A stretch of 64,000 nt of DNA from Stutzerimonas degradans (lineage in GTDB: Bacteria; Pseudomonadota; Gammaproteobacteria; Pseudomonadales; Pseudomonadaceae): positions 1-64,000 of the forward strand of contig NZ_JAMOHV010000010.1 in the NCBI RefSeq assembly GCF_024448505.1, read 5' to 3'. Position numbers and translations under genes: made by a program. Under the pieces are notes generated by a model. That model had not been told where the DNA came from. It searched no databases and was given only the letters and a program-made list of their open reading frames with translations. This document shows, piece by piece, positions 44,002 through 51,711 of the stretch; position 1 is the first letter of the stretch, and each line of letters opens with the position of its first letter.

Positions 44002-44982
44002 GTGACCGACCTCTTCCAACCCGCCTGGTGGCTGCCGGGGCCGCATCTGCAGACCCTGTGGAACCCGTTCTTCCGCACCACGCCGACACTCGCGCGCCGG
44101 CGCGAACGGCTGTGGCTGGCCGATGGCGATTTCATCGACCTCGACTGGCACGGCCCGCACGACGCCACGGCGCCGCTGGTGCTGGTGCTGCACGGGCTCA
44201 CCGGCTCGTCCAGCTCGCTTTACGTGCTGGGCCTGCAGCAACAGCTGGCCGCACGCGGCTGGACCAGCGTGGCGATCAACTGGCGCGGCTGTTCGGGCGA
44301 GCCCAACCTGCTGCCGCGCGCCTACCATTCCGGCGCCAGCGATGACCTCGGCGAAGTCATCACCCACCTGCAGGCCAGCCGCCCGCTGGCGCCGCTGCAC
44401 GCGGTCGGCTATTCGCTGGGCGGCAACGTGCTGCTCAAGTACCTGGGCGAAACTGCCGGCAGCTGCCCGCTGCGCAAGGCGGTCGCGGTGTCGGTGCCGT
44501 TTCGCCTGGACCAGTGCGCCGACCGCATTGGCCTGGGCTTCTCACGCGTTTATCAGGCGCATTTCATGAAGGCGATGGTCGCCTACGTGAAGGACAAGCA
44601 GCGGCTGTTCCGCGAACGCGACCTGCAGCAGCACCTGGCCACTCTCAGCGGCCTGGGCACGCTCGACGGCATGCGCACCTTCTGGGACTTCGACGGCCGC
44701 ATCACCGCCCCGCTGCATGGCTACCGGGACGCCGAGGACTACTACCGGCGCGCGTCGAGCCGCTATTTCCTGCCCGACATCGCGATCCCGACGCTGCTGA
44801 TCCAGGCCGCCGACGACCCCTTCGTGTTCCGCCACAGCGTGCCGGAAACCAGCGAACTGTCAGCGACCACCACGCTAGAACTGCACGCCCACGGCGGGCA
44901 CGTCGGCTTCATCGAGGGCACACCACGCCGTCCGCGCTACTACCTGGAGCGGCGCATTCCGCAGTGGCTGGCGGGTGCCTGA
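44002..44982 (+). CDS. YheT-family alpha/beta hydrolase
   Basis: Predicted esterase or hydrolase of 326 residues with the YheT-type N terminus (WWLPGPHLQTLWNPFF), the oxyanion region LVLVLHGLTGSS, the nucleophile elbow GYSLGGN, and the catalytic His in HGGHVGFIEG near the C terminus. The likely start is GTG at 44002. Substrate unknown. It is convergent with the exopolysaccharide-type cluster, whose last gene ends 7 nt away. Confidence 0.9.
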   Translation: MTDLFQPAWWLPGPHLQTLWNPFFRTTPTLARRRERLWLADGDFIDLDWHGPHDATAPLVLVLHGLTGSSSSLYVLGLQQQLAARGWTSVAINWRGCSGEPNLLPRAYHSGASDDLGEVITHLQASRPLAPLHAVGYSLGGNVLLKYLGETAGSCPLRKAVAVSVPFRLDQCADRIGLGFSRVYQAHFMKAMVAYVKDKQRLFRERDLQQHLATLSGLGTLDGMRTFWDFDGRITAPLHGYRDAEDYYRRASSRYFLPDIAIPTLLIQAADDPFVFRHSVPETSELSATTTLELHAHGGHVGFIEGTPRRPRYYLERRIPQWLAGA

Positions 44983-44988
44983 GCGATC

Positions 44989-46005
44989 TCAGCTGCCGAA
45001 CGGCAGCCACGCGTGCGGGAATCGTGCCTTGAGGCCGAGCCGGTCGATGCGCCACTCGGGCGGCAGCCCATCCTGCACCCGTGCTATCACCCGCAGGCTG
45101 CGCGTCGGTGCGCTGAACGGCGGGCGCAGTTCGACCGGGACCGGCGCTGCGTCGTCCACCGCCTGGATCACCACCGCCAGGCGCTGGCTGTGGTCCGGGA
45201 AAACCAGCATCAGCGACTTGCCGGGCATGGCCTCGGCGGCATGCCGCGGGTCGAGATAGACCCACACCTGCGGCTCGCCGTCGCTTTCCACGCGCAGCAG
45301 CGGCGTACCCGGTCCGACGTTCTCGCCAGGCGCGACGAGGATTTCGCCGACACGGCCGTCATTCTCGGCGCGCAGCTCCAGCCCCTGCAAACGGCTATCC
45401 AGCCAGGCCAGCTCAAGGTCGCGCTGACGCTGCTCGGGGCCGACCTCCGGCTGGCGACGCTGCTCCAGCTGATACAGCTCGCGCAGCCGTACATCACGCA
45501 GATCGGTCGCCGCCAGCAACTCGCCACGGGTGGCCGCGCCGGCATCGAGCAGCCGCTGGACCTGCCGTACGCGCGCTTCGGCACCTGCCAGCGACTCCTG
45601 CAGCAGCGCCCGTTCGGCTTCCAGGCTGGCGGCATTCGGGCTTTCCATCGGCGTGCTCGCCGCCTCCAGCAGGAAGCGCCGTGCCCGCCACTCCGGGTTG
45701 TCCAGACGCACCAGCAGCTCGCCGGCCGTGACCCGCTGCCCCGGCTGTACCAGCAGCTGCTGGACCTGCGCGGCGTCACGCGCGCGCAGCTCGCTGCCCG
45801 GCAGATGCAGCTGAGCCGGCGCCTCGATCAGCCACAGGGTGAGCACCCAGCGGCCGATCAGCCAAAGCAGCGGACTGAGTACCGCCAGCAGAATGAGGTA
45901 CCAGCGCACTCGGAAGGCCAGGCGCTTGCCCGGCGCATAGAGCACCTGCAGGCCCTGCTCCTGGGTGGGTTGTTGCTCCTTGGCGCTGGAGAATTTGATC
46001 TTCAT
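44989..46005 (-). CDS. HlyD-like membrane fusion protein of the putative polysaccharide export cluster
   Basis: Inner-membrane periplasmic adaptor of 338 residues: a cytoplasmic N terminus, one membrane helix (about 34-58), a first half-lipoyl motif (LLVQPGQRVTAGELLVRLD), an alpha-helical hairpin rich in Glu, Arg, Leu and Gln (about 115-205), a second half-lipoyl motif (GRVGEILVAPGENVGPGTPL), and a beta-barrel end. It is the last of four tightly packed genes, starting 9 nt after the TolC-like gene. It is predicted to bridge the glycosyltransferase and the outer-membrane factor. No ABC or RND pump is encoded nearby, which argues that the synthase itself moves the polymer. Confidence 0.85.
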   Translation of the reverse strand: MKIKFSSAKEQQPTQEQGLQVLYAPGKRLAFRVRWYLILLAVLSPLLWLIGRWVLTLWLIEAPAQLHLPGSELRARDAAQVQQLLVQPGQRVTAGELLVRLDNPEWRARRFLLEAASTPMESPNAASLEAERALLQESLAGAEARVRQVQRLLDAGAATRGELLAATDLRDVRLRELYQLEQRRQPEVGPEQRQRDLELAWLDSRLQGLELRAENDGRVGEILVAPGENVGPGTPLLRVESDGEPQVWVYLDPRHAAEAMPGKSLMLVFPDHSQRLAVVIQAVDDAAPVPVELRPPFSAPTRSLRVIARVQDGLPPEWRIDRLGLKARFPHAWLPFGS

Positions 46006-46014
46006 GCGATGTGC

Positions 46015-48099
46015 TCAATGGGGATAGTGAGACCAGTCCTGCCAGTCGATGCCGGCAACGGCCTGTGGCTGCAACTGCTGGCGCCAGCGCTCGGTCTGCG
46101 CCTGCAATTGCGCGCGCGAGGCGGCGCTCCAGCTTTCATCCGCCGCCAGCTGCGGCTCCACGCTCTGCGCCAGGCGGAACGACAGTCCCGGCCAGCGGCG
46201 CGCAATATCCGCCGCCAGCTCGGCGCTGCGTGCGGCGTTGCGGGTGTAGATCATCAGGCTGACCTGGCGCACACCGCGCTGGTGCAGCTCGCAGGGCACG
46301 CAGTACGCGCCAGCGCGCGGTGTGGCGAACCAGCGGTGATGGCTGGACAGTTCGAGCGGCCAGGGACTGACACGCGCGACCGCCGCCAGCGTGTCGATCC
46401 AGTCGTGCAGCCGTATCTCGGGCACCGGCCAGCCGAGCTGCTCGACCTCCAGATCCAGATGCAGACCGGCGAACGGCAGCGCGCGCAGCTCGCCGAGCAG
46501 ATCGAGCAGCCCCTTACGCCCGTCGGGCTGCAGCCAGTGCGGATCGCCGAGCAGCAGCAGCACCTCGAAGCCCTGTGCGCGCGCGGCCTCCAGCAACCCG
46601 CGCAACTGGCCGCGCAGGTGCTCCGGCTGCGCCACCTGGGTGGCGTCGAGGCCGAGATAGAGGCGCTGCATGCCGGCCACGCGCAGCTGCGCGAGTGCCT
46701 CGGCGCGGCGCTGTTCATCGAGCAGCGCGTGACTCTTCCAGACGTAGACACCCTGCTGCCAACGCGCGGCACGGGGCGCCGCCGAGGTACGCGCCTCGGC
46801 CTGCGGTGCCTGCCAGTCGAGCGTGCCCGGCCCCAGCAGCGACGCGTGCGCCACGCTGTCGTCGACGAACAGGCGCAGAGCCGCTTCCCGCAGCCACAAC
46901 CCGTGCCAGGCGGCGATCAGGCGCAACCCGGCGTAGCCGTGCTCCAGCTCCGCCGCCAGGCTGCCCAGATAGGCCTGATCGACGTCGCCAGCGCGCCGCA
47001 GACGTTGCTCGCGCACGGCCAGCGCCGCCGTTTCCAGCTGCTGGCGCGCCTGCAGCAGGTCTTCGGCGGCCGCGCGCTGCGCACGCAGCGCCTGGCCGAG
47101 GCCCTGCACCAGGCGCTCACGCTCGGCATCGAGCTGCGCCAGCGCCATCTGGTGACGTGCCGCGCCCTCATCGCCGCGCGCCTGCCCGTAGGACAGCGGG
47201 TCGAAGGGCGCCGACAAGCTGATGCTGGCCACCAATCCATTGCCCGGCTCGTTGCCGCCGCTGCGGTCTTCGTAGCTCTGCGCGACGCTGAAGCTCGAGT
47301 CGACCGCCGCATACCACGGACTCTGACGATTGCGCTCGGCCTGACGCAGTTGCTCGCGGCGCTCCTGCAGCCGCGGATGCCGCTCGAGCTGCTGCAACCA
47401 GGCGCCCAGCGGCTGCGCGGCGTTCGCCAGCGCCTCGGCACGGGCCTGCTGGCGCACCTCGATCGACTGTCCACTCAGCGCCTGCAGGCTGTAGCGGGTT
47501 TCTTCCAGCAGCGGCCCGGCGGCGGCGCAACGGCGCTGCAGCGCTTGCCAGCGGCCGTCCTGCAGGCGCGCCTCGGAAGCCAGCAGCCAGCCTTCGCGCA
47601 GGCGCGCCGCCAGCTGCTCGCGCGCGCGTTGCGCAGGCTCGGCGATGCCGTCGCACCAGCGCAGCTCCTCCTGCGCCCGCCACCAGTCGGCATAGGCGCT
47701 GCGCAGCGCCAGGCGCTGCTCGAGGCGAGCCAGCTGCAGCCGCGCCTGCTGTTGCTGGCGCTGGTCTTCGACGCTGCGCAGCGCATCCTGCTGACGCTTC
47801 AGGCTGCCCAGCAGCGGATGGCGCAAGCCGAGCGCCAGATCGCGACCGTAGTAGTCGTCGCGCACCTCTTCGGTCACCAGCTCCCGATAGCGCCCGGTCC
47901 CTGCCGAGGCGAACCATTGCCAGCCGGCTTCGGCCTCGCGCTGGCGCTGCAATGCCTCGAGCGCCGCACCTTCGGCCTCGGCCGCGCGCAGCAGCGGCGT
48001 GCTGTCGGCGCCATCGAGCAGCGCCGGTAGCGGCAATACCTCGGCCAGACAGGATGAAGCCAGTCCCAGCAGACCCAGCAATAGGAATACTCGCCGCAT
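46015..48099 (-). CDS. TolC-like outer-membrane factor fused to a TIM-barrel-like (glycosidase-like) domain
   Basis: Exported protein of 694 residues with a signal peptide (MRRVFLLLGLLGLASSCLA). Residues about 25-430 look like a TolC-family channel: long Gln/Leu/Arg/Ala helices and a duplicated pattern. Residues about 445-694 form an alternating strand-helix domain: RLYLGLD, EVLLLLGDPHW, GLHLDLEVEQL (Asp549, Glu551), LELSSHHRWF, VSLMIYTRN and GIDWQDW. The strand-end acids and late Trp/Tyr resemble TIM-barrel glycosidase-like domains of the HLDxEP type. A channel carrying such a domain is unusual. The start overlaps the glycosyltransferase stop (TGATG). The ORF could reach 48129, but the ATG at 48099 begins the signal peptide. 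Confidence 0.8.
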   Translation of the reverse strand: MRRVFLLLGLLGLASSCLAEVLPLPALLDGADSTPLLRAAEAEGAALEALQRQREAEAGWQWFASAGTGRYRELVTEEVRDDYYGRDLALGLRHPLLGSLKRQQDALRSVEDQRQQQQARLQLARLEQRLALRSAYADWWRAQEELRWCDGIAEPAQRAREQLAARLREGWLLASEARLQDGRWQALQRRCAAAGPLLEETRYSLQALSGQSIEVRQQARAEALANAAQPLGAWLQQLERHPRLQERREQLRQAERNRQSPWYAAVDSSFSVAQSYEDRSGGNEPGNGLVASISLSAPFDPLSYGQARGDEGAARHQMALAQLDAERERLVQGLGQALRAQRAAAEDLLQARQQLETAALAVREQRLRRAGDVDQAYLGSLAAELEHGYAGLRLIAAWHGLWLREAALRLFVDDSVAHASLLGPGTLDWQAPQAEARTSAAPRAARWQQGVYVWKSHALLDEQRRAEALAQLRVAGMQRLYLGLDATQVAQPEHLRGQLRGLLEAARAQGFEVLLLLGDPHWLQPDGRKGLLDLLGELRALPFAGLHLDLEVEQLGWPVPEIRLHDWIDTLAAVARVSPWPLELSSHHRWFATPRAGAYCVPCELHQRGVRQVSLMIYTRNAARSAELAADIARRWPGLSFRLAQSVEPQLAADESWSAASRAQLQAQTERWRQQLQPQAVAGIDWQDWSHYPH

Positions 48100-49427
48100 C
48101 AGAACCTCTTCGCCTTGCGCAGCACCCACCAGGGCGCCATCGAGGTTTCCTCATGGCCACGCCGGATCATTTCGTTGAGGATCGCCACTGCGCTCCAGCA
48201 GCGCATGACGAACATGAACAGCGGAAACAGCGGCACCACCCAGCACAGCCACAGGTCCTGCCGCGGCCGCTCGGACACCATGCACACCGCTACCACGTAG
48301 GCCAGCAGGGTGTTGGCCAAGTACACCAGATAGACCAGCCAGGCGAGCACCAGGAAGGTCGACAGCGTCAGCGAGTACAGTCCGACGATGAAGTAGCCGA
48401 GGATGATGAACGGCAGCACCAGCTGGAAGAAGAACCCGCTGACCAGCACCACCAGAAAGTTCGGCCAGCCGAGCAGGCGCGGCGTGAAACTGTGGCGATG
48501 CTTGCGCACATAGAGGAAGAACAGATCGCCATCCCAGCGCAGGCGCTGCATGAGGAACTGGCGGAACGTCACCGGCGCGTCAGTGTGGCCGATGGCGCAC
48601 GGCTCGAATGGAATGCGCAGCGGCCGGCGGCCGAAGTAGTTCTTGATGCGCAGGGTGATATCCAGATCCTCGGCGGTATGGGTATCCCAGCCACCGATTT
48701 TCTGCAGAAAGCTGCGACGAAAGGCGCCGAACGCGCCGGATACGTTATTCACCACGTTCCACTCGCTGAGCCCGATCTTGGCCAGCTGGATCGACAGCAG
48801 GTATTCCAGCGCCTGCATCGCCGTGGTCAGCGAGGCGCGAGCGTTGCGCACCCGCAGGCTGCCCGCCACCGCCGGCACGTCCGGGTCCTGGAAATGGCGC
48901 ACCACGTTGACCACCATGTCGTTGTCGAACGAGGTATCGCCGTCCAGCGCCATGACGATCTCACCGGTGCTGTATTCCAGCCCGGCGTTCAGTGAGGACA
49001 CCCGGCCGCCACGCTGCCATTTGGCGATCGGCCGCAGAAAGCGCCGCGGATACAGCTGCGCATCGAGGCGAAAATCCCGCACGGCCTGCATCGTCGCGTG
49101 ATTGGCCGTCGCGCCGTCGACCACCGGAATCATCTCGATCTCGCCGCGATAGGTCTGCTCGCACAGGCTGAGCAGCGTGGTCTGCACATCCCGACCTTCG
49201 CTATAGCAGGTGATCACGCAGGACACGCGCGGCTGGTAACTGTTGCCTTCCGGCAGCTCGAAGGGTTTGCGCGCGAACCAGCGCAGCACGCCGAGCAGGA
49301 TCACCAGGCTGAGCGGCACCTCCAGCAACAGAAACGCCGGAAACAGCATCACCAGCAGATAGCCCAGGCCGTCGGGCTTGTCGATTTCGCCGAGAATCCC
49401 CAGCCACTGCAGCCAGAAACCCTCCAT
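48099..49427 (-). CDS. Processive-type family 2 glycosyltransferase (polysaccharide synthase)
   Basis: Membrane glycosyltransferase of 442 residues. A first membrane helix (about 22-48) is followed by the GT-A domain with VSCVITCYSEG, the sugar-nucleotide and metal motif DGD (162-164), the base region TAED (Asp254), and the QxxRW motif Q294-R-L-R-W298 that marks processive synthases such as PgaC, BcsA and hyaluronan synthase. Four or so C-terminal helices follow. No PilZ domain is present. It overlaps the TolC-like gene and lies 1 nt after the zinc-ribbon regulator. The product sugar cannot be read from the sequence. Confidence 0.88.
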   Translation of the reverse strand: MEGFWLQWLGILGEIDKPDGLGYLLVMLFPAFLLLEVPLSLVILLGVLRWFARKPFELPEGNSYQPRVSCVITCYSEGRDVQTTLLSLCEQTYRGEIEMIPVVDGATANHATMQAVRDFRLDAQLYPRRFLRPIAKWQRGGRVSSLNAGLEYSTGEIVMALDGDTSFDNDMVVNVVRHFQDPDVPAVAGSLRVRNARASLTTAMQALEYLLSIQLAKIGLSEWNVVNNVSGAFGAFRRSFLQKIGGWDTHTAEDLDITLRIKNYFGRRPLRIPFEPCAIGHTDAPVTFRQFLMQRLRWDGDLFFLYVRKHRHSFTPRLLGWPNFLVVLVSGFFFQLVLPFIILGYFIVGLYSLTLSTFLVLAWLVYLVYLANTLLAYVVAVCMVSERPRQDLWLCWVVPLFPLFMFVMRCWSAVAILNEMIRRGHEETSMAPWWVLRKAKRF

Positions 49428-49428
49428 C

Positions 49429-50820
49429 TCAGCCCAGCTCCCCGTTCAGGCGCGCCAGCAGCAACGCGGCATCTTCCTGTTCGAGCAGGTCGGCCGGTGC
49501 GGTGAAGCCGATCTGACGCAGCTGCAGCTGGCCGATTTGCTCGCTGGCCAGACGCTCGGCACCTTCCTGCAGGCGTTTACGCACCACTGCCAGGCCGGCC
49601 GCATCGGTGTGCGGCATCATGATCCAGAGGATCTCTTCGCTGACCCGGCTGCAGCGATCGGTGTCGCGCACGGCTTCCTGCAAGCGTTCGACCAGGCTGT
49701 CCACCAACGCATGGCCGCGCAGCTCGCCGAGTGCGCTGATGGTCGCCGCCAGGTTGACGAACCGCAGCCCCAGCAGGGAGAACGCCGGCTGCTTGTAGCG
49801 CCGCACCAGCTGCAGCTGCCAGTTGAGCAGCTCGTGAAAGGACTTCTGGTTGAGCAGGTTGAGCGCACCGAACTGGTCGGTCTCGGCGACACTGGCCGAG
49901 TAACCCTGCCGACAGCGCAGCCGGCCGGCCTCGGCGAGGCGGAAGTGACGCACCTCGCGCACGCGCAGCTTGTCCGGCGCATGGGCCTGGCCACAGTCCA
50001 GGCAGCGCGCCTCGACTTCGGCATCGACGAAGAACGCCTGGCAGCTGCGGCAGCGATAGTTCTCCAGCGGCCGGTCGTAATCGCTGCCGATGTGACGCAG
50101 GCGCGAGAAACAGTTCGGGCAGAGCAGCAGGCCATCCTTGAGGAAGTGCTCCTGGGCGCCGACGTGGCCGCAGGTGAAGCAGTGCAGCGACGGCTGACGG
50201 GCGATTTCCAGCGTCTGGCACTCCGGGCAGACGTCCACGTAGTTCAGCCGGCCGGAGCCACAACCGACGCACAGGCGCACCCGATCGACCAGCTCGCCCT
50301 CTTCCAGCCAGCCTTGCTGGGTCATCAGCTGCAGCCAGGCGAAGGCGTTCGGCGACTCGTCGTCTTCCAGCGCCTCCAGCAGCGGGTAGTGATAGTGCTG
50401 CGCCACACCGGCATCGCGCACCGCATGGATGGCACCGTGCGGCCGCAACCACAGCCAGGCAAGCACGCGCGACTCGAAACGCTCCGGCGCCACCCCACGA
50501 TTGAATAGCGCGAAGCGCTCCTGCCACAGCCGCCAGAGCGGCACCAGCGCACTCAGATCAGCCGGCGGCGCACCGTCGCCCAGCGACTTGCAGGATGCGT
50601 CCTGCTCCTGGCAGCAGTAGATCAGGCTGAAGCGATAACGCTTGTCCATACGCAGGCTGCGCAAGGCTTCGCCGGCGCGCACCGCCGGCAGATCGAGCAG
50701 AACGATGTCATACGCCGGCAGCGCCGCGAGCGCGGACCACTCGGGGTGCCGCTCGTATTCGATACCGACAACAGGGGAAGAAGACGCACCAAGGACGGCG
50801 ACGCGTGGCATGGGGGACAT
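49429..50820 (-). CDS. Zinc-ribbon protein with degenerate receiver-like and GGDEF-like domains, putative regulator of the polysaccharide cluster
   Basis: Cytoplasmic protein of 463 residues. Residues 5-80 resemble a receiver lacking the usual acidic cluster. Six CxxC pairs at 184/187, 198/201, 214/217, 234/237, 257/260 and 273/276 make three zinc ribbons. Residues about 320-460 follow a GGDEF fold, but the signature is RVSEEI (392-397), so cyclase activity is very unlikely. The zinc region may belong to the TackOD1 output-domain family; I cannot confirm that. It is the first gene of the cluster and lies 1 nt from the glycosyltransferase, suggesting a c-di-GMP or nucleotide sensing, or scaffold, role. 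The start may be at 50820 or 50811; neither has a strong Shine-Dalgarno. Confidence 0.75.
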   Translation of the reverse strand: MSPMPRVAVLGASSSPVVGIEYERHPEWSALAALPAYDIVLLDLPAVRAGEALRSLRMDKRYRFSLIYCCQEQDASCKSLGDGAPPADLSALVPLWRLWQERFALFNRGVAPERFESRVLAWLWLRPHGAIHAVRDAGVAQHYHYPLLEALEDDESPNAFAWLQLMTQQGWLEEGELVDRVRLCVGCGSGRLNYVDVCPECQTLEIARQPSLHCFTCGHVGAQEHFLKDGLLLCPNCFSRLRHIGSDYDRPLENYRCRSCQAFFVDAEVEARCLDCGQAHAPDKLRVREVRHFRLAEAGRLRCRQGYSASVAETDQFGALNLLNQKSFHELLNWQLQLVRRYKQPAFSLLGLRFVNLAATISALGELRGHALVDSLVERLQEAVRDTDRCSRVSEEILWIMMPHTDAAGLAVVRKRLQEGAERLASEQIGQLQLRQIGFTAPADLLEQEDAALLLARLNGELG

Positions 50821-50838
50821 GGGAAGGAAAACCGGATA

Positions 50839-50864
50839 ATGGCGATGTGATACTTGATCGCCAT
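50839..50864 (-). promoter_or_regulatory. Inverted repeat in the leader of the polysaccharide cluster
   Basis: ATGGCGAT (50839-50846) and ATCGCCAT (50857-50864) form a perfect 8-bp inverted repeat with a 10-nt spacer, about 20 nt upstream of the first gene. The surrounding 50830-50945 is clearly more AT-rich than its neighbours, as expected for a promoter region. It may be a DNA operator or an mRNA hairpin near the ribosome-binding region. Confidence 0.4.
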
Positions 50865-50945
50865 CATTCTAAGAGTTCTTCTAGGATTATTCGCCAGCTA
50901 TTCGTCGCCTCGACGCATGAATATTGATCAGGCTCAGCGTGAGCG

Positions 50946-51614
50946 TCATAAATCCGACGAAATACCTCGACAACCATCCGACAGATACTTGTGCAGCAGC
51001 TCGGAAACCTCCGCTGAAGCGCCCGGAGACACGAAGCCCACCTCCAATGCCAGCAACTGATAGATACCGCGGCGCAACTGCTCCGGACCGAGCTGCGCGG
51101 ACGGCTCGCCGACGGTGCCGAGAAAGCGCACCCAGGAGGTGAGGATGATCCAGGCATTGAGCGCCAGCGCTTCGACCTCGGCGGGGCCCATGCGCAGGAT
51201 GCCGGCGTCGACGAATCCCTGATAGATAGCCCGCGCGTTGTCCAGGCAACGCGCCGCAAAGGCGCGGTAGCGCTGTGCCAGCGCTTCGTCGGCGGCGAGT
51301 AGCGCTTCCAGGTCGCGATGCAAGAAACGGAAGTCCCACATCGCTGCCAGCAGCGCCTCCAGATAGACGGCCTTGTCCGCCACCGTCAACGCCCGTTGCG
51401 GCGGGCGCAGGAACTCGTCGATGCGAGCCTCGTAACGCCTGAACAGCTCGGCGACGATCGCCTGCTTGTTGGCGAAGTGGTAGTACAGGTTGCCCGGCGA
51501 TATGCCCAGATGCGCCGCGATGTGATTAGTGCTGACGCCGCGCTCGCCCTGGGCATTGAACAGCTCGAGGCTGGCATCGAGGATGCGGTCGCGGGTCTTT
51601 GCTCGGGGCGCCAT
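50946..51614 (-). CDS. TetR-family transcriptional regulator
   Basis: DNA-binding repressor type protein of 222 residues from the ATG at 51614. The N-terminal helix-turn-helix is clear (TRDRILDASLELFNAQGERGVSTNHIA, then ISPGNLYYHFANKQAIVAELF). The C-terminal domain is the ligand-binding type found in the Pseudomonas regulator next to coniferyl aldehyde dehydrogenase. It is divergent from that gene across a 126-nt region holding a TTGACA promoter with an embedded palindrome, so it probably represses the aldehyde dehydrogenase cluster. The polysaccharide cluster lies downstream on the same strand. Confidence 0.9.
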   Translation of the reverse strand: MAPRAKTRDRILDASLELFNAQGERGVSTNHIAAHLGISPGNLYYHFANKQAIVAELFRRYEARIDEFLRPPQRALTVADKAVYLEALLAAMWDFRFLHRDLEALLAADEALAQRYRAFAARCLDNARAIYQGFVDAGILRMGPAEVEALALNAWIILTSWVRFLGTVGEPSAQLGPEQLRRGIYQLLALEVGFVSPGASAEVSELLHKYLSDGCRGISSDL

Positions 51615-51682
51615 GGGCGTCGGTCTCGTGGGGTCTGCGAGGGTGCAACGGTACAGCCCCGCACCGGCGCAGGCGAGTCGCG

Positions 51683-51711
51683 TTGACACTTTAGAGCAAT
51701 TACTCTAGAAA
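51683..51711 (+). promoter_or_regulatory. Promoter of the aldehyde dehydrogenase cluster with embedded TetR-type operator
   Basis: A consensus -35 TTGACA (51683-51688) and TAGAAA (51706-51711) are exactly 17 nt apart. Between them TAGAG-CAATTA-CTCTA (51692-51707) is an inverted repeat that overlaps the -10 box. A repressor bound there would block polymerase. The divergent TetR gene is the obvious candidate. Confidence 0.6.

Follow-up and report, generated by a model that had tools for sequence, protein, structure and literature searches.

A probable Mxd-type exopolysaccharide operon in Stutzerimonas degradans with a predicted cyclic di-GMP receptor

We have analysed a group of four co-directional genes on the minus strand (50820-44989) of a 64,000-nucleotide stretch of Stutzerimonas degradans DNA (contig NZ_JAMOHV010000010.1; hereafter the window). 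The operon is probably an Mxd-type, synthase-dependent exopolysaccharide (EPS) system gated by cyclic di-GMP (c-di-GMP). Judged by sequence comparison, it is the Pseudomonas form of the mxd cluster of Shewanella and not an unknown class, and its addition is a gene that joins a TolC-like channel to a TIM-barrel-like domain (TolC-TIM). Homology, the conservation of motifs, a constant gene order, polymorphism of the chromosomal site and copies on plasmids are direct observations; the ligand, the polymer and the activity of the window operon are predicted from them.

The operon and its counterpart in Shewanella

The four genes are tightly packed. Genes 1 and 2 are separated by 1 nt, genes 2 and 3 overlap in the sequence TGATG, and 9 nt lie between genes 3 and 4. 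This is the layout given in the original prediction, whose coordinates and junctions were re-derived exactly. The features are as follows, all on the minus strand.

49429..50820, minus: gene 1 (463 aa), MxdA-like, with an N-terminal region, a TackOD1 zinc ribbon and a degenerate GGDEF domain
49936..50484, minus: TackOD1 domain of gene 1 (residues 113-295), with six CxxC pairs, from Pfam match and alignment
49540..49860, minus: degenerate GGDEF domain of gene 1 (residues 321-427), with VSEEI where GGDEF is expected
49657..49668, minus: RDTD of gene 1 (residues 385-388), the RxxD inhibitory-site motif (putative c-di-GMP binding), from alignment
48099..49427, minus: gene 2 (442 aa), MxdB-like membrane polysaccharide synthase of glycosyltransferase family 2 (GT2)
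48534..48548, minus: QxxRW motif of gene 2 (QRLRW, residues 294-298), as in processive GT2 enzymes
46015..48099, minus: gene 3, whole open reading frame (ORF; 694 aa)
46819..48099, minus: N-terminal part of gene 3 (about residues 1-427), signal-like hydrophobic N-terminus and TolC/OEP-type outer-membrane channel
46015..46818, minus: C-terminal part of gene 3, TIM-barrel-like domain, weakly GH18-like (LHLDLE and MxY motifs)
44989..46005, minus: gene 4 (338 aa), MxdC-like periplasmic adaptor of the HlyD family, with a hydrophobic stretch at its N-terminus

The ORF list starts gene 3 at an upstream GTG at 48129. Pfam matches gene 1 to TackOD1 (E = 2e-64) and GGDEF (E = 1.6e-8), gene 2 to GT2 families at about 1e-16, the N-terminal part of gene 3 weakly to OEP/TolC (2e-8), and gene 4 to HlyD_3 (4e-10); it detects no PilZ domain in any of the four proteins, and no ABC, RND or MFS pump among them. 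Membrane spans and signal stretches were judged by a simple hydropathy scan, which gave four hydrophobic stretches in the GT2 protein (two of which overlap), a signal-like start in gene 3, a membrane-anchor-like start in gene 4, and no membrane span in gene 1. Promoter, terminator and Rfam scans returned nothing useful.

The mxdABCD genes of Shewanella are a putative exopolysaccharide cluster required for aggregation and three-dimensional biofilm, and mutants in mxdA and mxdB lose aggregation and most of the biofilm (PMC3691769; papers are cited here from excerpts of their text). We have compared the window operon with the locus of S. oneidensis MR-1 (L180). The A-B-C order is the same in both, with a protein combining TackOD1 and a degenerate GGDEF domain, a GT2 and a HlyD-type protein. 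Gene 1 is 33.2% identical to MxdA over 449 aligned residues, and has the twelve CxxC cysteines and RxTD. Gene 2 is 49.2% identical to MxdB, and gene 4 is 23.9% identical to MxdC, with HlyD_3 in both. The two clusters differ in that the window operon has the extra TolC-TIM gene between the equivalents of B and C, and in that MxdD has no counterpart in the window, where the gene after HlyD is a convergent hydrolase. In MR-1, MxdD is an ORF of 122 aa with no Pfam match, called a conserved hypothetical protein (PMC3691769); it may not be a defining part of an Mxd cluster. Thus the expectation that the window cluster would stand apart from known polysaccharide loci is not borne out; mxd was not among the loci named in the original prediction.

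No work on mxd homologues in Pseudomonas was found among the open-licence PMC matches listed, and they may be described elsewhere; two Pseudomonas papers (PMC3945005 and PMC11253619) have mxd words only in their reference lists. No paper joining HlyD, TolC, GGDEF, glycosyltransferase, exopolysaccharide and operon was found in the open-licence PMC literature. PMC12175535 was rejected as a relevant paper, its subject being GGDEF-EAL proteins, and neither BgsB nor HlyD is mentioned in PMC5567048.

A scan of genome contigs with a profile of 13 gene-1 proteins gave 212 relatives, of which the best 80 were taken; together with nine loci from the genus and five plasmid loci these make up the 94 loci compared here. 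Two pairs (L047/L133 and L050/L156) each represent the same place twice, L137 is truncated where its contig stops, gene 1 of L090 is divided between two ORFs, and L009 spans the start of its record. A GT2 gene adjoins gene 1 on the same strand with a gap of no more than 7 nt in all 94 loci. Similarity detects HlyD in 92 of them; the remaining two are L137, where the sequence stops too early, and L013, whose HlyD is known from its annotation. In the co-occurrence check proposed with the original prediction, the genes are found together in nearly all loci. The same counts support its proposal of a complete set for synthesis and export from inner to outer membrane, accompanied by a nucleotide-sensing protein.

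A TIM or TolC-TIM protein is encoded between GT2 and HlyD in 59 of the 94 loci (49 of the 80 named). The named loci that have it belong to Pseudomonas or Stutzerimonas, apart from one Marinobacter metagenome-assembled genome and one record labelled Pantoea. The 35 loci lacking the gene include those of Shewanella, Vibrio, Aliivibrio, Photobacterium, Pseudoalteromonas, Rheinheimera and Plesiomonas, two from Alphaproteobacteria, and L137. Among the 59, 34 are long fusions of 573-762 aa and the other 25 are proteins of 277-341 aa, a barrel with little or no channel. The predicted fusion of a TolC-like channel to a TIM-barrel-like domain holds for the window, but the channel half is not constant, being small or absent in 25 of 59 loci.

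In an even draw of Gammaproteobacteria, TackOD1 occurs in 17 of 369 genomes. A GT2 match lies directly downstream in 15 of the 17 TackOD1 loci examined outside the S. degradans genome itself; it is missing from the stretches examined of L188 (G404) and L202 (G476), where the domain is perhaps used differently. Within Shewanella, a relative of gene 1 is present in 16 of 129 genomes at E 1e-30.

Other polysaccharide systems resemble the operon in part. The Pel system includes a TIM-barrel-type hydrolase, PelA, which parallels the barrel of gene 3. Pel also has a degenerate GGDEF domain with a retained RxxD as its c-di-GMP receptor for EPS, a likeness of working principle and not of membership. 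The window synthase, a GT2, brings its own membrane part, whereas Pel uses PelF (GT4) recruited by PelDEG, and the window receptor pairs GGDEF with TackOD1 where PelD pairs it with GAF (PMC8461298). For poly-GlcNAc (pgaABCD), the likeness is that PgaC/IcaA is the closest named model for the window synthase, although the score is 137 bits against a cut-off of 422.3. A PgaB-type (PF14883) match is absent from the S. degradans genome at E 1e-10, and pga uses PgaA where the window operon has TolC and HlyD. Cellulose (Bcs) and alginate share with the window operon a GT2 synthase under c-di-GMP control, which is predicted for the latter, and Alg44 of the alginate system is adaptor-like. The window GT2 differs from the cellulose system in reaching only 26 of 699 bits with the CelA model, and in the lack of PilZ.

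Does the operon export a free polysaccharide? HlyD and TolC families mostly export small molecules and proteins, so that a GT2 coupled to a HlyD-TolC efflux path might instead deliver a glycolipid or a small glycoside, and MxdC has been described as efflux-pump-like (PMC3691769). We regard this as very improbable. The four genes include no pump of the ABC, RND or MFS type, QxxRW together with the hydrophobic stretches marks a synthase that moves its own chain, and in Shewanella the mutants no longer aggregate or build a three-dimensional biofilm (PMC3691769).

Gene 1 as a candidate c-di-GMP receptor

Alignment of 95 gene-1 proteins, including those of the window and MR-1 (92 distinct sequences), gives a clear pattern. 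The active-site motif GG[DE]EF is present in none of the 95, while the R and D of RxTD are jointly retained in 93. Because of this combination, gene 1 of the gammaproteobacterial loci looks like a c-di-GMP receptor, similar in logic to PelD. PelD shows the same pattern, an active site that is lost and an inhibitory site that is kept, and BcsE too has a degenerate GGDEF-like domain (PMC8461298). In MxdA itself the GGDEF domain is described as degenerated (PMC3409153), and the protein is reported to bind c-di-GMP and probably to turn on the Mxd machinery (PMC7666153).

The twelve cysteines of the six CxxC pairs are each conserved in 92-95 of the 95 proteins, and all twelve are present in 89. They are the most conserved feature of the protein, and TackOD1 has been described as an output domain that is predicted to bind metal and whose function is obscure (PMC5847659). 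It might thus be argued that gene 1 serves chiefly, through its zinc ribbons, to sense metal or redox state or to act as a scaffold, with c-di-GMP binding a vestige; the two alphaproteobacterial clusters, which keep the gene order and have lost RxxD, are in accord with this. We consider it quite improbable, since RxTD is kept in 93 of 95 proteins despite an active site that has drifted freely, and Shewanella MxdA is reported to bind c-di-GMP (PMC7666153).

In the receptor interpretation, gene 1 would be a cytoplasmic protein whose GGDEF domain very probably cannot make c-di-GMP and would bind it at the RxTD site. It would then switch on the GT2 encoded beside it through the zinc-ribbon TackOD1 domain.

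Two observations concern unusual members of the family. The alphaproteobacterial clusters L012 and L013, with the A-B-C order and no RxxD in gene 1, may be a differently controlled version. In Shewanella indica (L090, 6701-8137) gene 1 lies in two ORFs, and G098 has an in-frame TAG; both are possible cases of decay.

The synthase, its candidate polymer and the barrel of gene 3

Of 95 proteins, 94 conserve all the GT2 motifs (D104, DxD, ED and QxxRW); the one that does not is from L152, where the GT2 is split into two ORFs. Compared with NCBIfam models, gene 2 scores 137 bits with PgaC/IcaA (cut-off 422), 78 bits with NodC (below cut-off) and 26 bits with cellulose synthase.

A predicted sugar C4-epimerase adjoins 19 of the 94 clusters, counted by an adjacency rule (an earlier clustering of neighbours had named 22 loci), and these fall into three groups. 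In 17 of the 59 TIM/TolC loci, all titled Pseudomonas, the gene next to the cluster encodes, on the same strand, a GalE-like epimerase; that of L111 (14640-15587) reaches 197 of the 262 bits required for galE. In Rhodobacteraceae L012 a galE that passes the cut-off is the downstream neighbour of the cluster, and another lies 110 nt upstream of the cluster in Idiomarina L089. Three genes fall outside the count: that of L088 is RmlD-like by eye, and those of L097 and L158 are 102 nt and 2249 nt away.

The C-terminal 265 aa or so of gene 3 has no Pfam match above cut-off, the best being MEDS (E = 0.041, 14.1 of 29.8 bits). Nor has the barrel of L111, where PLDc_2 (E = 0.3) and Docking (E = 2.2) come closest. 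No NCBIfam match exceeds its cut-off, and the PDB gives only chance-level matches, the best of which (E = 0.14) is a keratin. A profile search of 5.8 billion proteins, with 7999 candidates scored, gave at least 213 relatives of the barrel. Among the 120 listed, most are unnamed or hypothetical and one is a TolC family protein with a MEDS label; the named ones belong to Pseudomonas, Pseudomonadaceae or Gammaproteobacteria.

Alignment of the barrels with less than 85% identity (34 rows, with the window in place of L133) reveals invariant positions in H-L-D-L-E, M-I-Y and Q-S-x-E. The GH18 motif is DxxDxDxE. Its last D and its E are invariant in all 34 rows as part of HLDLE, and an invariant H occupies the place expected for the second D. 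The barrel profile scores 34.05 against a GH18 profile, a value reached in none of 60 column shuffles (maximum 22.6). With the PgaB-type and GH114 control profiles, 4 and 5 of 60 shuffles scored at least as high as the real alignment, these profiles being thinner (5 and 4 rows, the latter after removal of the empty L222) than the 10 rows of GH18. A relation of the barrel to PgaB-type or GH114 proteins is thus neither established nor firmly excluded, and its likeness to GH18 is weak and should be taken as a lead only.

Because the synthase is PgaC-like, C4-epimerases adjoin some clusters and the barrel is weakly GH18-like, there are hints, each of them weak, that the polymer may be built from N-acetylhexosamine. 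The same export machine might instead carry a plain beta-glucan, cellulose-like or of mixed linkage, the GT2 motifs being those of processive synthases in general and 75 of the 94 loci having no adjoining epimerase. This is unlikely in our judgment. The cellulose synthase model gives far fewer bits than PgaC/IcaA or NodC, GalE-like epimerases recur in three groups, and the GH18 family, which the barrel weakly resembles, acts on N-acetylhexosamine chains.

The predicted path is as follows. Gene 2, which has the motifs of a processive synthase, would polymerise a UDP-sugar, probably an N-acetylhexosamine, and pass the chain through the inner membrane. Gene 4 would span the periplasm, and gene 3 would form the duct in the outer membrane. 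Other synthase systems have periplasmic hydrolases, and the barrel at the periplasmic end of gene 3 would probably trim or edit the chain before its exit.

A number of observations weigh against the assignment of the operon as a c-di-GMP-gated Mxd system of this kind. The identity of gene 4 to MxdC is low (23.9%). MxdA is reported to alter c-di-GMP levels indirectly (PMC3691769, PMC3409153), and so may be more than a receptor; and the receptor model leaves part of the family uncovered, as L012 and L013, the two alphaproteobacterial homologues, lack both the R and the D of RxxD. An epimerase is found in the minority of loci and none adjoins the window operon. The MEDS match to the barrel, though below cut-off, competes with the GH18 reading; two of the four acidic positions of the GH18 motif differ in the barrel; and hhalign gave the GH18 pairing a probability of 4% at first and 26% after cleaning (two fragments of 46 and 41 aa dropped from 12 rows, and realignment with other MAFFT settings), a weak resemblance. 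The clusters of Shewanella, Vibrio and their relations have no TolC-TIM gene, and therefore export there needs another channel. Lastly, although the mxd genes have been known for years as biofilm genes in Shewanella, we found no polymer described for any Mxd system in the excerpts consulted of open-licence PMC papers.

Taken at their widest, Mxd loci would be a further widespread class of c-di-GMP-gated EPS systems. A zinc-ribbon/degenerate-GGDEF receptor would replace PilZ or PelD, the polymer would be an N-acetylhexosamine (perhaps GalNAc-containing) chain, the Pseudomonas channel would be fused to a GH18-like trimming enzyme, and the machine would have moved to a mobilizable plasmid. As a whole this is a tentative picture, and we hold it to be somewhat doubtful. 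New here are the receptor pattern in gene 1, the weak GH18 match of the barrel, the adjoining epimerases, the empty sites and the plasmid operons of Aeromonas caviae. The same core recurs, with its conserved putative c-di-GMP site, in numerous records of Pseudomonas, Vibrio, Pseudoalteromonas and Rheinheimera, and Pseudomonas adds a channel of its own and a candidate domain for trimming, so that the nature of the polymer can be tested in several genetic backgrounds.

Plasmid copies and the chromosomal site

The operon is carried on a mobilizable plasmid of 29,020 bases in two Aeromonas caviae strains from Kanagawa (KAM329 and KAM345). In NZ_AP024139.1 (L185) it has 95.2% DNA identity over its full length; in NZ_AP024951.1 (L009) it spans the start of the record. 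The homologous segment corresponds to window 44557-50933 (94.1%). It starts within the hydrolase gene and extends slightly beyond gene 1, and the plasmids carry, alongside the operon, a part of the chromosomal hydrolase gene that is cut short. The segment is nearer to the window than to the nine other carriers, and its G+C content is 67%, compared with 57% in the rest of the plasmid. These features suggest that the segment came fairly recently from a donor resembling Stutzerimonas. With a full matrix operon carried by a small mobilizable plasmid, a type of matrix could pass between genera. More distant three-gene clusters are found on plasmid records of Plesiomonas, Rhodobacteraceae and Aminobacter.

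In the window the site is bounded by two genes.

50946..51689, minus: TetR-family regulator, the boundary upstream of the operon
44002..44982, plus: alpha/beta hydrolase (NF008218, PRK10985), convergent, the boundary downstream

A full gene 1 is present in 10 of 56 Stutzerimonas genomes, other matches being to the GGDEF part alone. The TetR gene lies upstream in seven of the ten carriers and was not found there in G034, G050 and G051; the hydrolase stretch is unmatched in the carriers G044 and G051. A TetR homologue occurs in 47 of the 56 genomes; the 30 such loci examined comprise seven from carriers and 23 from non-carriers. In 18 of the 23 non-carriers the hydrolase lies within 120 nt of TetR, i.e., the site is empty. 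Of the others, L083 has about 900 nt between the flanks, and in L073, L077, L078 and L079 the hydrolase was not seen in the stretch examined.

Most of the 80 named loci sit at other sites. Outside the genus, the operon lies between both flanks in six of the named records, all of Pseudomonas (L143, L145, L155, L158, L162 and L163). A quick tree was built from the two flank proteins on the upstream side, its six outside-genus rows having been picked because they carry the operon. On it the carrier state needs four changes, three of them within the genus; all 500 shuffles need more (mean 11). Since the site is occupied outside the genus, three to four changes of state are needed and flanks differ in three of the ten genus carriers, a single recent insertion is no likelier than an old presence followed by losses, and exchange by recombination between the flanks fits no worse than such an insertion. 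The original prediction of an inserted self-contained module is thus partly supported, by the site being empty in 18 of 23 non-carriers, and is called into question by the occupied Pseudomonas records, the number of changes and the differing flanks.

Some minor observations were made in passing. The window contains an ORF of 1005 aa antisense to genes 3 and 4 (45013-48030, plus strand), typical of the shadow ORFs of high-GC DNA. A Tolumonas gene after HlyD, taken by eye to resemble GH16, was rejected, having no Pfam match at E 5. In 20 Pseudomonas loci the cluster is followed, in the same orientation, by a lipoprotein-like gene without a Pfam family (16252-17319 in L111), which may be only a chromosomal neighbour. 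In Pseudomonas frederiksbergensis 36C6, two Mxd-like clusters (L116 and L122) encode the same gene-1 protein and lie some 86 kb from each other on a contig named 'Joined_contig', maybe an artefact of assembly. Aliivibrio fischeri emors.2.1 has two different Mxd-like clusters (L102 and L140) about 14 kb apart on one contig.

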